A DNA stretch of 64,000 nt from an uncultured Eggerthellaceae bacterium (GTDB lineage: Bacteria > Actinomycetota > Coriobacteriia > Coriobacteriales > Eggerthellaceae). Position 1 is the first letter of the stretch, and each line of letters opens with the position of its first letter. The position numbers and the translations under genes were made by a program. The notes under the pieces were generated by a model. The model saw only the letters and a program-made list of their open reading frames with translations, had not been told where the DNA came from and ran no database searches. Shown here one piece after another: positions 4,843 to 10,037 of this stretch. The stretch covers positions 1 to 64,000 of the forward strand of contig CALUHI010000030.1 in the NCBI GenBank assembly GCA_944320405.1, given 5' to 3'.

Positions 4843-4877
4843 GATGCCTCCCTTTCTGCTCTGCGATGAACTTTTAG

Positions 4878-4928
4878 TTGCAAACAGCTAACTTTTTGAA
4901 CGATAATGCGGTGTGCAAGCTTTGTCAA
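4878..4928. promoter_or_regulatory. overlapping divergent promoters with imperfect palindrome
   Basis: Plus strand: -35 TTGCAA (4878-4883), 18-base spacer, -10 GATAAT (4902-4907), driving the microprotein at 4953. Minus strand: -35 TTGACA (4923-4928), 17-base spacer, -10 TATCGT (4900-4905), driving DUF6110 and the ATPase. The two -10 elements overlap almost completely, so only one polymerase can bind at a time. An imperfect palindrome (TTAGTTG, four bases, CAGCTAA) covers 4875-4892 and may be an operator, perhaps for a DtxR/MntR-type repressor. Confidence 0.6.
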
Positions 4929-4952
4929 CCATGTCAAACTTTGGAGGCTGCC

Positions 4953-5033
4953 ATGAAAAGACATCGTTTTTGGGCGTGGGCAAGCGTCGTCTGCGCAATT
5001 ATGACGATATACACCGGCTACAAACACAAATAG
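4953..5033 (+). CDS. 26-residue membrane microprotein (DUF6219-like)
   Basis: ATG at 4953 lies six bases after a perfect GGAGG (4943-4947). It encodes 26 residues: a short basic start (MKRHR), one hydrophobic helix (FWAWASVVCAIMTIYTG) and a YKHK end, followed by TAG and a run of T. The HRFWAW...YTGYKHK pattern matches small proteins I recall from Firmicutes annotated as DUF6219; this identity is from memory. A good promoter precedes it (4878-4907). It is divergent from the metal ATPase operon with overlapping -10 boxes, so a link to metal homeostasis is likely but unproven. It is shorter than most gene finders report. Confidence 0.65.
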   Translation: MKRHRFWAWASVVCAIMTIYTGYKHK

Positions 5034-5324: not shown

Positions 5325-5343
5325 TTAGATTAGGCTAATTTAA
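5325..5343 (-). promoter_or_regulatory. IdeR/DtxR-like iron box overlapping a promoter -35
   Basis: The 19-base site TTAGATTAGGCTAATTTAA matches the actinobacterial IdeR/DtxR consensus (TTAGGTTAGGCTAACCTAA) at 16 of 19 positions by eye. It overlaps the -35 region of a minus-strand promoter whose -10 is TACAAT (5311-5316) and also covers the stop codon of the ABC transporter gene. Placement over the -35 fits repression of the Cys-containing membrane protein gene when metal is plentiful. Confidence 0.65.
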
Positions 5344-7073
5344 AGTGCCCACTCGGCACTTTCGGTCTGCAGGCGCACCATACGGGCGAACAAGCCTCCG
5401 CGTTCCAGAAGCTCCTGCGGGCTGCCCTGCTCAGCCACACGGCCCCTGTCGAGTACGACCACCTTGTCAGCTGCCATGACGGTGCGCATACGGTGCGCAA
5501 TCACGATCACCGTCTTGCCGACGAGCAGGCGGGAAAGCGCGCCCTGCACCTCGGTCTCGTTCTCCACGTCAAGAGAAGCCGTCGCCTCGTCAAGCAGTAC
5601 GATAGGAGCATCCTTCAGAAGCGCCCGCGCGATGGAGATGCGCTGGCGCTCGCCACCGGAAAGCCGTGCGCCGTTCTCGCCGATGGGCGTGTCGTAGCCC
5701 TGCGGCAACCTGCCCACGAACTCGTCGCAGTTCGCCGCGTGCGCAGCGGCAAGCACCTCTTCGTCGGTGGCACCGCGCCGCCCAAGTCGAATGTTGCCCA
5801 TCACGGTATCGTCAAAGAGCACCACATCCTGGAACACCACCGAGAAATCGCGCAGCAGCACCTCAGGGTCGACCCGCGCCACGTCAACGCCACCTACGGT
5901 CACGCGTCCTTCGGTAGCATCCCACAAACGCGCCGACAGTCGCGCGCACGTCGACTTGCCCGAACCCGAAGGTCCCACGAGCGCCGTAACTTCGCCCTCA
6001 CGCGCGACAAACTCCACGCCGTCGAGAACTTTCCCGCCTTCGCCGTAGGAAAAGCCCACGTCCTCGAATGCCACAGTGTGGCCTTGCGGTTCAAACGACT
6101 CCGATCCTGCAGCTAGCGGTTCGTCGTAGAAGTCTTTCATGCGCGCAGCAGACGTTTTAGCGGAAAACAGCTCCGCAATAAGCATCAGGCACTGGTCAAA
6201 CGGCGCATAAATGCGCGACGCCACCAGCAGGAAATAGAACAGTGTCATGAAGCCGCACGAACCATCAAGCACGAGAATCGAACCAAAAAGGATGGTAGTG
6301 GCAATGCCCAGCCTCAACACGATCTGGGCGCCGTTCACGCAGACGCCGCACGCGATCTCTGATTTCGCCGCCTGGCGCTCTGCGGCATCGATGTCGGCGC
6401 GGATATGCTCGAGGTATCGCTCTTCCTGGTTGGTCGCGCGCACCTCGCGCACGCATTCGAGCGCCTCCTGGATGTCCTCGGATATAGCAAGCCCTTTCAT
6501 GCGCGTGGCATGCATCATAGGCTGCAACGCCCGACGTGCGCCGAACAGCAACCCAAGCGCCACCGGTGCGCTCCAGAGAGCCGCGATAGCCAGTCGCCAA
6601 TCAAACGCAAGCAGTCCCACTGCTGTAACCCCCAACATGATGTAGGCACCGTAAAGCTCGGGCAGCACGTGACTGTAAGCGTGTTCAATGGTCTTTACGT
6701 CGCCCATGATGGTTTCGGTGAGATCTGCCAGGTCGCGCCTACCGAAAAACGATAGCGGGAGCTTTCGCAAGCGTTCGGCAAGCCTGATGCGCAACCTGCC
6801 GCTTTCTTTGTAAATGACGCCGTACTGGTAGTAGTAGGCGAAGTATTCGGTGATGAACAGCACGACCGCAAACACGATGAGCCCAACGGCAAACGGCACG
6901 ATATCGGGCAGCGCCGCCCCGCCCGTCAGATGGTCCATGAATGCGCCCATCGCCAGAAAGAGTGCTCCCACACCTGCGAACACCACAAGGTTCGACACGG
7001 CGGTCCAAATGGCTCCCAGCTTGACGTTGCGCACACCCTCGTCGGTAAGCCCGTATTTCTGTTTGATGGACAT
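5340..7073 (-). CDS. ABC transporter permease/ATPase, siderophore-import type (YbtP/IrtB-like)
   Basis: 577-residue half-transporter: a six-helix membrane domain (about 20-310) and an ATPase domain with Walker A GPSGSGKS (367-374), signature LSGGE (471-475) and Walker B IVLLDE (491-496). It starts with TAGATG immediately after the partner gene's stop, so the two are translationally coupled and surely form a heterodimer. Exporter-fold pairs with a divergent AraC regulator are the arrangement of yersiniabactin YbtPQ, which import ferric siderophore; the neighbouring IdeR-like box supports an iron role. A multidrug exporter is the alternative. The last codons form a hairpin (AAAGTGCC/GGCACTTT, 5342-5363). 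Confidence 0.85.
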   Translation of the reverse strand: MSIKQKYGLTDEGVRNVKLGAIWTAVSNLVVFAGVGALFLAMGAFMDHLTGGAALPDIVPFAVGLIVFAVVLFITEYFAYYYQYGVIYKESGRLRIRLAERLRKLPLSFFGRRDLADLTETIMGDVKTIEHAYSHVLPELYGAYIMLGVTAVGLLAFDWRLAIAALWSAPVALGLLFGARRALQPMMHATRMKGLAISEDIQEALECVREVRATNQEERYLEHIRADIDAAERQAAKSEIACGVCVNGAQIVLRLGIATTILFGSILVLDGSCGFMTLFYFLLVASRIYAPFDQCLMLIAELFSAKTSAARMKDFYDEPLAAGSESFEPQGHTVAFEDVGFSYGEGGKVLDGVEFVAREGEVTALVGPSGSGKSTCARLSARLWDATEGRVTVGGVDVARVDPEVLLRDFSVVFQDVVLFDDTVMGNIRLGRRGATDEEVLAAAHAANCDEFVGRLPQGYDTPIGENGARLSGGERQRISIARALLKDAPIVLLDEATASLDVENETEVQGALSRLLVGKTVIVIAHRMRTVMAADKVVVLDRGRVAEQGSPQELLERGGLFARMVRLQTESAEWAL

Positions 7074-8879
7074 CTAGGCCACCTCCTCAGACGTGATCTT
7101 CCAGCTGACCGCCTTCTCGTAGTCTGCCCACATGCGGGCATACAAGCCACCTGCGGCCAGCAACTCATCGTGCGTGCCCTGCTCCGCCACGCGACCCTCA
7201 TCGAGTACCACGATCGAGTTGGCGTTGCGCACCGTGGACAAACGGTGCGCCACCATAAGGACGGTGCGCCCACGCGCGAGCTCGCTGAACGCACGTTGGA
7301 TCTTTACCTCGTTTTCGGGATCGGCGAATGCCGTGGCCTCATCGAGCACCACCACGTCGGCGCGTTTCAGAATGGCGCGAGCCAACATGAGCCGCTGCAC
7401 CTCGCCGCCGGAAAAATGGGTGCCCTGTGCGCCATACACGGTGTCGATGCCGTCGGGCAGCTTCGCGATTATGTCGTCACATTGGGCGGCATGCAAAGCC
7501 TCGCACACTTCCGCGCGCGACGCATCGGGCCGCGCCGCCCGCACGTTCTCCAAAACGCTTTGCTTGAACAGGCGATTCGCCTGGAACACAAACGACACGC
7601 GATCCATCAGATCGTGCGGATCCATGCAACGTACGTCCACGCCTCCGAAGAGCACGCGGCCATCACTTACATCCCAGAAGCGCGGCACGAGGCTTGCCGC
7701 CGTAGTCTTGCCGCCACCGGACGGACCCACCAGCGCAACAGTCGACCCAGCGGGCACCGAGAAGCTCACATGGTTGAGCGCAGGCACCTCAGCTCCTTCG
7801 TAAGTGAAGCTCACGTCCTCGAACACGATAGAGTTGTCCATCGGCACTTGCGGGTTTGCCGGAGCTTGCATCACGGGAGCGGCAAGCACCTCCTCTACGC
7901 GATTCACGGCATCTGCGGCAGACTGAAACGCTTCGGACATGAACATCACACGCGTCATGGCCGTAGGGATAACCGCCGTGAAGATGGCGTAGAAGGCGAA
8001 ATTCGCCAGGAACGTCCCGAAATCCCCTTCCCCAGGCGCAAGAAGGATGGCAACCGGCACAAGAAAGATTGCCACACCGTTGATGATGGTGAGCGAAAGC
8101 GACTGTGGCGTTTGGCACCATCTCACTGCGTAGTCCTGCGCAAGACGCGTAAATTCCTGAATGGCGTCATGGAACGCCTTGAAGGAATAGACTGTCTGCT
8201 GGAACACCTTCACCACAGGGATGCCACGAACGTACTCGGTGCCTGTCTTGTTCATCTTCACGAGCGACTCCATGTACTTCGTCATGAAGTCCATGCCGCG
8301 CCCGCCCATCATGTAGAACAGGCAGCAAAGCGACAAAATGACAGGCACCAAGCACGCAAGCCCCAGCCGCCAATCGAATACGAAAAACAGCACGATCATG
8401 CCGACGATCATGGCAACCGAGCCGGCCGTATCGGGCAGCTTGTGCGCAAGCAATCCTTCCGTCTCGGCCGCGCAGCCGTCCACCACACGTCGCAACGCAC
8501 CCGATGCGTGTGTGTCGAAGTACCCCAGTGATGCGTGCATCAGATGCCCAGTTGCTTGTTTGCGCATGTTTGCCGCACAGCGAAACGCCGCCAAGTGCGT
8601 GCACATGAGCCCTGCGAAGTACAGCGCGATGGACGCAGCAGAAAGCCCAAGCGCCCACCATCCGTACGCAGCGATGCTGGCTGCCGCGCTCCAATCGGGC
8701 GCGACTGCAATGAGATCACGCGCCACCAGCCAGATACACACATATGGGCCAAACCCCACGACCATCGACACCGCCGAAAGCACGCAACCCAAATACGTGA
8801 GCGCTTTACGCTGTTCGGCAAAGTCCAGCAGCCTTGACGCAGCACCTCGCTTGCGTGGGGATCCTTCCCCTTTCTTCAT
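7074..8879 (-). CDS. ABC transporter permease/ATPase, siderophore-import type (YbtQ/IrtA-like)
   Basis: 601-residue partner half-transporter, first gene of the two-gene operon. The membrane domain covers about 25-330; the ATPase has Walker A GPSGGGKT (385-392), a signature with Phe in place of Leu (FSGGE, 489-493) and Walker B VVVLDE (509-514) followed by ATAFAD instead of the usual ATASLD/ATSALD. Start at 8879 is backed by GGAGG ten bases upstream; an in-frame ATG at 8918 lacks a site. Divergent from the AraC gene with 186 bases between. The iron-siderophore role is inferred from the architecture and regulator. Confidence 0.85.
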   Translation of the reverse strand: MKKGEGSPRKRGAASRLLDFAEQRKALTYLGCVLSAVSMVVGFGPYVCIWLVARDLIAVAPDWSAAASIAAYGWWALGLSAASIALYFAGLMCTHLAAFRCAANMRKQATGHLMHASLGYFDTHASGALRRVVDGCAAETEGLLAHKLPDTAGSVAMIVGMIVLFFVFDWRLGLACLVPVILSLCCLFYMMGGRGMDFMTKYMESLVKMNKTGTEYVRGIPVVKVFQQTVYSFKAFHDAIQEFTRLAQDYAVRWCQTPQSLSLTIINGVAIFLVPVAILLAPGEGDFGTFLANFAFYAIFTAVIPTAMTRVMFMSEAFQSAADAVNRVEEVLAAPVMQAPANPQVPMDNSIVFEDVSFTYEGAEVPALNHVSFSVPAGSTVALVGPSGGGKTTAASLVPRFWDVSDGRVLFGGVDVRCMDPHDLMDRVSFVFQANRLFKQSVLENVRAARPDASRAEVCEALHAAQCDDIIAKLPDGIDTVYGAQGTHFSGGEVQRLMLARAILKRADVVVLDEATAFADPENEVKIQRAFSELARGRTVLMVAHRLSTVRNANSIVVLDEGRVAEQGTHDELLAAGGLYARMWADYEKAVSWKITSEEVA

Positions 8880-8947
8880 GCAAAACCTCCAATCTTCGAA
8901 CACGCGCGCCTTACCCAAAGGGACCGGGAAAACGGGTAGCGCGCTTG

Positions 8948-8964
8948 ATAGTTATACATAGTTA
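8948..8964. promoter_or_regulatory. tandem ATAGTTA repeats, candidate AraC-regulator site
   Basis: Two ATAGTTA copies (8948-8954 and 8958-8964) are spaced exactly 10 bases, one helical turn, in the AraC/ABC divergent region. AraC-family proteins often bind such direct repeats. The minus-strand -10 candidate TATAAC (8951-8956) overlaps the first repeat. Confidence 0.5.
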
Positions 8965-9065
8965 ACTTATCATTGCGGACAGATGCCAATCCCCCGGTGC
9001 AGAAACCGGGGACGCACTCGAAACGAACCAGGACGATCTCGAAACATAAACCGAAAGGAGAGCCC

Positions 9066-10037
9066 GTGGACGCGTTGCGATCGGGTATGCCGCAACACCT
9101 GCGGACGTTCGTCGAACCGCAGGTGGAGCAACTCTCCTTCAAGATGGAACCCATCCGCTGCGGGTTGTACGGAACGTTGCCGGAGCCGCTCGGCGAGGGC
9201 TTCCTCTGGACCGCGCCCCTTGGCGACGACTGCCTTGTGAGCATGCACTCGCTGCGCCTTAAGAGACCTTTGCTTCTTGAAGAGCGCCCGACGGACTTCT
9301 CCTGCATCTTCTCGGGCTCGCGCGCAACGTACCTCTCGCTACCGGGCACAAGCGCCGCCGCATCCAACGAAACGGAAAACCTCGCAGCGTTTTCACAGGA
9401 AGGAGGAGCGACGCGCTGCCTCATGCAGGCAGGAGTGCTTTACGAGTCGACAAGCATCACCTACACCCCAGACTACTTCAGCAGGATGGCAAGAAAATTC
9501 CCTGACGATTTCGGGAACGCAAGCGAATTGATGCGGTCGCTCGATCCCGCAAGCCCGCCTCCTGAGACGAGGATCATCTTGCGGGCGTTCACCCCCAAAC
9601 GCGCCGTTCTTCCCGGTGCCGCGCCGTACTTTCACGCCAAGGCGCTCGAAGCGCTAGGAGCACTATTGACGCACTGCGAATCTGCCGTCGAGAGTGAAGC
9701 GCGACAAGAAGACATAACGCTCTTCAATCAGGCCGAAGCTATCATTTCATCACGTTTCGCTGAACCGCTAACTGCGAAATCCATCGCTGACGAGTTGTAT
9801 GTGAGTCGCTCGAGGCTCTGCGAGGCATTCCGACGCGTATGCAGCAAAGGCGTAGCCGAGCGTCTTCGGGAAGAACGGATGCGGGTCGCACATCGATTGC
9901 TAGCAGATGGCAGCGCGAACGTCGCGAAGGTGGCGAAGACAGTTGGCTACGCACGATCGTCTTCGTTCGACGAAGCGTTCCGCCGCGAGTTCGGATGCTC
10001 CCCTTCGCAATGGAGACACAGTCAATCAGCACGCTAA
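9066..10037 (+). CDS. AraC-family transcriptional regulator (YbtA-like context)
   Basis: 323-residue regulator. The C-terminal 100 residues form the two-helix-turn-helix AraC domain: LTAKSIADELYVSRSRLCEAFRR (first HTH) and ANVAKVAKTVGYARSSSFDEAFRREFGCSPSQWR (second HTH with the family ending). The N-terminal 200 residues are a variable sensing domain with no recognised motif. A GTG start at 9066 is chosen because AAAGGAG lies five bases upstream; the frame upstream of it is untypical. It is divergent from the ABC pair, like YbtA with YbtPQ, and probably activates it when the siderophore is present. The actual inducer is unknown. Confidence 0.85.
   Translation: MDALRSGMPQHLRTFVEPQVEQLSFKMEPIRCGLYGTLPEPLGEGFLWTAPLGDDCLVSMHSLRLKRPLLLEERPTDFSCIFSGSRATYLSLPGTSAAASNETENLAAFSQEGGATRCLMQAGVLYESTSITYTPDYFSRMARKFPDDFGNASELMRSLDPASPPPETRIILRAFTPKRAVLPGAAPYFHAKALEALGALLTHCESAVESEARQEDITLFNQAEAIISSRFAEPLTAKSIADELYVSRSRLCEAFRRVCSKGVAERLREERMRVAHRLLADGSANVAKVAKTVGYARSSSFDEAFRREFGCSPSQWRHSQSAR

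Follow-up and report, generated by a model that had tools for sequence, protein, structure and literature searches.

Several P-type ATPases have a very short partner protein with one helix; MgtS, MgtR and sarcolipin/phospholamban are examples. KdpF is a further very short single-helix protein of this kind (PMC3618439). For the poorly characterised P1B6 class, of which an HN motif in TM6 is a feature, the excerpts of PMC9374683 used here describe DUF6110 proteins, typically encoded with the pump, as relatives of the PacL (DUF1490) chaperones; in these excerpts and in those of PMC13043812, PacL/DUF1490 and PacL-like DUF6110 proteins are partners of CtpC-type ATPases. Here we compare with these systems a 26-aa microprotein encoded next to a pump of this class in a 64,000-nt stretch of DNA from an uncultured Eggerthellaceae bacterium (the window).

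The ATPase of the window has SC in TM4 and HN in TM6, as had each of the 56 long ATPases adjoining the microprotein in relatives (57/57 in all). Its small neighbour scored 45.5 bits as a DUF6110 protein (cut-off 26), that is, as a PacL-like partner. The microprotein shares with PacL/DUF1490 and DUF6110 proteins, as portrayed in the same excerpts, that it is small, has a single TM helix and is encoded with a P1B6 or P1B6-like pump, but it bears no sequence relation to them, is about four times smaller than DUF6110 and lacks a cytoplasmic region; the excerpts of both sources contain no mention of it. Its likeness to KdpF, MgtS, MgtR and sarcolipin/phospholamban is one of size and linkage, with no sequence relation claimed, and those proteins belong with other ATPase classes. 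FeoB-associated Cys-rich membrane proteins (PF12669) are also small membrane proteins of iron loci, and a weak relative lies beside the microprotein gene, but they have a Cys-rich tail and form a separate family.

Table 1. Features of the microprotein locus (window coordinates)
Feature	Position	Strand	Basis or detail
P1B6-type heavy-metal ATPase, 698 aa	2454-4550	-	DYSCALKL in TM4, LLHN in TM6, DKTGT
DUF6110 (PacL-like) protein, 95 aa	4555-4842	-	8e-12; DUF1490 0.002
18-bp palindromic operator AGTTGCAAACAGCTAACT	4876-4893		AGTTR-N8-TAAYT; regulator inferred
Microprotein promoter	4878-4907	+	TTGCAA 4878-4883, 18 nt, GATAAT 4902-4907; 9/12
Divergent DUF6110-ATPase promoter	4900-4928	-	TTGACA 4928-4923, 17 nt, TATCGT 4905-4900; 10/12
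Ribosome-binding site GGAGG	4943-4947	+	5 nt upstream of ATG 4953
26-aa single-TM microprotein, single-copy DUF6219 (PF19727)	4953-5033	+	Translation, Pfam, profile search, pN/pS
FeoB-associated-like small membrane protein, 55 aa	5061-5228	-	Weak PF12669 match, E 0.02; convergent with microprotein
DtxR/IdeR-like iron box TTAGATTAGGCTAATTTAA	5323-5343		Before FeoB-associated-like gene; 16/19 of consensus
Third operator copy AGTTATACATAGTTAACT	8950-8967		Between ABC transporter pair and AraC regulator

The product of the microprotein ORF, MKRHRFWAWASVVCAIMTIYTGYKHK, is 26 aa long and is read from the ATG at 4953 to a TAG at 5031-5033. An initial annotation had credited this ORF with a perfect GGAGG, a good promoter, a single membrane helix with basic ends and divergence from a metal ATPase operon with overlapping -10 boxes, and all of these features were recovered (Table 1). 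The -10 boxes overlap at 4902-4905, and two promoter-like sites were observed, compared with 0.5 ± 0.7 in shuffles. Relatives keep the -35/-10 blocks of both divergent promoters, with the AAGTCAA of the DUF6110-ATPase promoter (TTGACTT on the minus strand) conserved across them, and SD-like sites stand ahead of most microprotein copies. By translation and hydropathy the product is very short and has a single TM helix, the hydropathy maximum spanning F6-G22 between basic ends.

Conservation at the protein level, which the same annotation had named as the check on its proposal, was evident. A profile built from relatives detected the microprotein, once per genome, in 33 of the 298 Coriobacteriia genomes, with matches up to E 1e-16, and pN/pS pooled over 11 pairs was 0.147/0.643 = 0.23, indicating purifying selection. 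For one diverged pair (L045/L048), similarity was near random beyond the ORF boundaries. Length was exactly 26 aa in 95 of the 111 copies parsed, and the sequence was conserved right up to the C-terminal end. Among the Coriobacteriia microproteins, which were found by profile and not by pattern, His4, Cys14, Thr21 and Gly22 were nearly invariant. A length of only 26 codons might suggest a spurious ORF, but the protein-level conservation, the pN/pS of 0.23, the occurrence in two phyla and the conserved signals leave that reading practically no probability, and conservation rules it out. ORF 4953-5033 is a real, widely conserved, unannotated protein-coding gene.

Pfam placed the microprotein in DUF6219 (PF19727) with 27.0 bits, right on the cut-off of 27, a borderline match that scored 24.6 bits in the genome-wide version of the search; an NCBIfam search with the microprotein gave no match, and DUF6219 was named in no paper of the literature searched. 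The Pfam model is double, describing proteins of ~69 aa with two copies of the motif and a linker of ~8 residues. The common motif, MKxHKFWAWA...C...YTGYK, is present here, but the microprotein matches one repeat and not the full-length 69-position architecture, and it stands as a single copy at a P1B6 pump, whereas the full-length form has two copies and lies near Bcp/YaaA. The microprotein is a half-length variant of a known family of uncharacterised function. That tools skip 26-aa ORFs and that the Pfam family was built on the double-length form suggests why annotation missed the gene.

Outside the profile search, a degenerate DNA pattern scanned over one genome per species yielded at least 119 microprotein stretches, the matches listed falling in Clostridia (mostly Lachnospiraceae and Oscillospiraceae) and Coriobacteriia. 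The conservation of M1, K/R2, H4, C14, T21 and G22 in this set is partly built into the pattern, which required His4, Cys14 and Thr-Gly. For Clostridia the scan gives a minimum estimate of how common the gene is.

The initial annotation had suggested looking for the motif beside P1B ATPase genes of further Coriobacteriia and of Firmicutes, a prediction strongly borne out by the linkage counts in both groups. In Coriobacteriia, 24 of the 33 copies have a P1B6 gene no more than ~0.8 kb away: 20 are divergent from it, 3 directly follow the ATPase and 1 is convergent; 6 others are unlinked, with a P1B6 pump elsewhere in the genome, and 3 are in genomes without an intact pump. Among the Clostridia matches listed, the microprotein precedes DUF6110, and then usually the ATPase, in 43 of 72 loci, while in 8 of 72 it follows the ATPase. 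The gene is thus found in three main layouts (divergent, first in an operon, or directly 3' of the pump), and linkage to the pump is conserved through all of them; that the layout varies while the partner stays constant argues for the protein over its position. Across the 298 Coriobacteriia genomes, a P1B6 pump was present in 30 of the 33 with the microprotein versus 79 of the 265 without it (Fisher p 8.6e-12, without correction for phylogeny). Most DUF6110/P1B6 loci of one genus (g44, Collinsella) have no microprotein, which is therefore not essential to such pumps. Elsewhere its neighbours include FeoB, Fur, DtxR, AraC and FeoB-associated proteins and a CsoR-type regulator. In one locus (L079) the microprotein is followed by the gene of a CsoR-type metal-sensing repressor, and in another (L046, genome G225) an intact microprotein sits immediately after a frameshifted P1B6 ATPase remnant.

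In most of the Clostridia loci among the matches listed, the microprotein lies ~12-44 nt 5' of DUF6110, a spacing that would suit a leader peptide that controls the DUF6110-ATPase genes 3' of it through its own translation. This is exceedingly improbable as a general explanation: the 26-aa sequence is conserved up to its end, and the gene cannot be a leader where it is on the opposite strand, as in Coriobacteriia, or 3' of the ATPase, as in other loci. A leader would precede the genes that it regulates and share their transcript; here and in 19 more Coriobacteriia the gene is on the opposite strand, and at the window locus the divergent orientation rules a leader out.

Within the microprotein promoter the palindromic operator falls between the -35 and the -10 box, and it also covers the region where the divergent promoter is predicted to start transcription. 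Just five sites matching AGTTR-N8-TAAYT occur in the 2.0-Mb genome: at the microprotein promoter, feoB, a DtxR-family gene, the FeoB-associated-like gene (5323) and the ABC/AraC promoter (8950). The DtxR-family site is just upstream of its gene in the feo locus (contig 14), so that the operator is common to feoB and a repressor gene, as in a DtxR-family regulon. Seven loci of close relatives carry it at the orthologous promoter; otherwise it is almost absent from the ~317 kb of related loci. The form of the pattern was chosen with four of the five sites already known, and the orthologous promoters had also been aligned by then; least dependent on this choice are the fifth site, at the DtxR-family gene, and the rarity of additional sites. 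Reversing the pattern yielded 2 + 2 matches, and a second feoB (contig 35) has no AGTTR-N8-TAAYT site. The textbook DtxR box fits well only at the 5325 site (microprotein operator 10/19), where the iron box before the FeoB-associated-like gene had 0.00 expected in shuffles.

The sharing of one operator by feoB and the DtxR-family gene, and its restriction to five places genome-wide, suggest iron control, and the 4876-4893 site is probably read by the DtxR-family repressor whose gene adjoins feoB. From the position of the operator, repression in high iron may be expected, with the pump made in iron limitation, which argues against simple iron detoxification. The pump may instead export other metals admitted by Feo, or deliver metal outside the cell. 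Two further features of the surroundings were observed. In two relatives, a FeoB-associated-like gene lies 3' of the microprotein on the same strand. In the window, two ABC half-transporters lie beside the AraC regulator (5340-10037); the pair resembles a transporter linked to iron or siderophores, putatively of the same regulon as feoB.

TisB- and Ibs-type toxins are hydrophobic peptides of comparable size with a single TM helix. A type I toxin-like peptide could resemble the microprotein in both respects, but a fixed association with a metal pump, an iron-type operator, an SD-equipped position in operons and the existence of a duplicated, fused version are at odds with such a peptide, and a promoter search found no antisense promoter inside the gene. 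We rejected this reading, whose probability we put as very small, on these grounds.

A common operator could also explain the linkage through co-regulation. The main rival to a subunit of the pump is a general iron- or peroxide-stress membrane protein, co-regulated with the pump without contacting it, in which the single-copy and tandem DUF6219 would have one function, for example membrane protection or metal/heme handling. The tandem form, a duplication of the 26-mer, lies mostly upstream of Bcp peroxiredoxin and YaaA genes, with a Fur-family gene after Bcp/YaaA in one locus. Divergent microprotein copies also occur in two genomes without a P1B6 pump (G185 and G196), and others lie near metallo-beta-lactamase-fold genes. 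Gene linkage may reflect co-regulation only, but the microprotein has tracked P1B6 through at least three layouts in two phyla, beyond what co-regulation would lead one to expect, and we regard a stress protein of this kind as possible though unlikely.

Several of these unusual copies have features of their own. The two in pump-less genomes (L037 in G196 and L043 in G185, both Olsenella-like) are longer-tailed, and no common neighbour of the two was found. Tandem-duplicated DUF6219 was seen in Lachnospiraceae (L247-L257 and L263), the last being a divergent two-helix form that weakly resembles cytochrome b561-type families. In several Clostridia the motif is fused in-frame to, or lies directly after, a metallo-beta-lactamase-fold protein: in L075, L077, L095, L114 and L117 it forms the in-frame C-terminal tail of a longer ORF, which is a metallo-beta-lactamase-fold protein in L075 and similar in the other four. 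An SD-like sequence precedes the internal ATG of these fused copies, and an internal start could possibly yield both fused and free microprotein. In L117, FeoA- and FeoB-like genes lie downstream of the motif. Together, the copies beside or fused to this protein fold and the tandem form with Bcp/YaaA make a broader function possible.

The tandem form also bears on topology. The K+R bias of single-copy microproteins, N minus C, was -0.12 ± 0.84 (104 sequences), a near-zero value of the kind seen with dual topology, and with a linker of ~8 residues the tandem helices must be antiparallel if both span the membrane. Fusion and near-zero bias together suggest antiparallel pairing of the 26-mers, comparable to known dual-topology proteins (for example, PMC3755343). 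Like EmrE and Fluc, DUF6219 combines a near-zero charge bias with the existence of a fused inverted pair, but those proteins are transporters or channels built of four TM helices, and the orientation of DUF6219 is a prediction from charge and fusion.

Such an antiparallel pair might bind metal or heme through His4 (and Cys14) and either hand it to the pump or act as a sensor. In addition to the charge bias and the short-linker fusion, the near invariance of His4 and Cys14 in the profile-found Coriobacteriia set would agree with this, and the tandem forms weakly match heme-b membrane families at sub-threshold scores, a lead only. These matches, however, are far below the cut-off and may reflect generic TM composition, Asn replaces Cys14 in a divergent copy (L064), and the search pattern itself demanded His4, Cys14 and Thr-Gly; we consider binding followed by delivery or sensing improbable. 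A related proposal, that antiparallel DUF6219 pairs bind metal or heme near His4/Cys14 as a third component of P1B6/PacL-like modules and that fusion of the pair gave rise to the 69-aa DUF6219 of peroxide loci, is a little less doubtful but still speculative.

On balance, we consider it somewhat probable that the microprotein serves an iron-regulated P1B6/PacL-like module as a small subunit, accessory or regulatory, and is expressed together with it under an iron-type repressor. The observations behind this are the conserved coding gene, the P1B6 linkage and co-occurrence, the conserved divergent promoter and the feoB-type operator; from sequence and gene context we infer binding to the pump and the metal pumped. 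One microprotein helix would pair with helices of the pump or of DUF6110, or antiparallel with itself, and this pairing would stabilise, tune or help to load the P1B6 pump. With ample iron, the DtxR-family repressor would shut off the whole cluster, and in iron limitation the pump and microprotein would be made together; the substrate would be in the Fe/Zn/Mn group. The initial annotation had proposed that the microprotein may regulate the pump or metal uptake: a role connected with metal gained support from the neighbours and the operator, and regulation may be one form of it.

P1B6 pumps are frequent in gut anaerobes, yet PMC9374683 describes them as poorly characterised. The association of the microprotein with the pump, and the operator, appear to be undescribed in the literature searched. 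The locus is a compact module of a pump, a PacL-like protein and a 26-aa helix, and its apparent iron-type operator narrows the question of the substrate. If the subunit reading is true, the microprotein would give the proposed efflux-platform family its third conserved part and would be a very small candidate subunit of a P-type ATPase.
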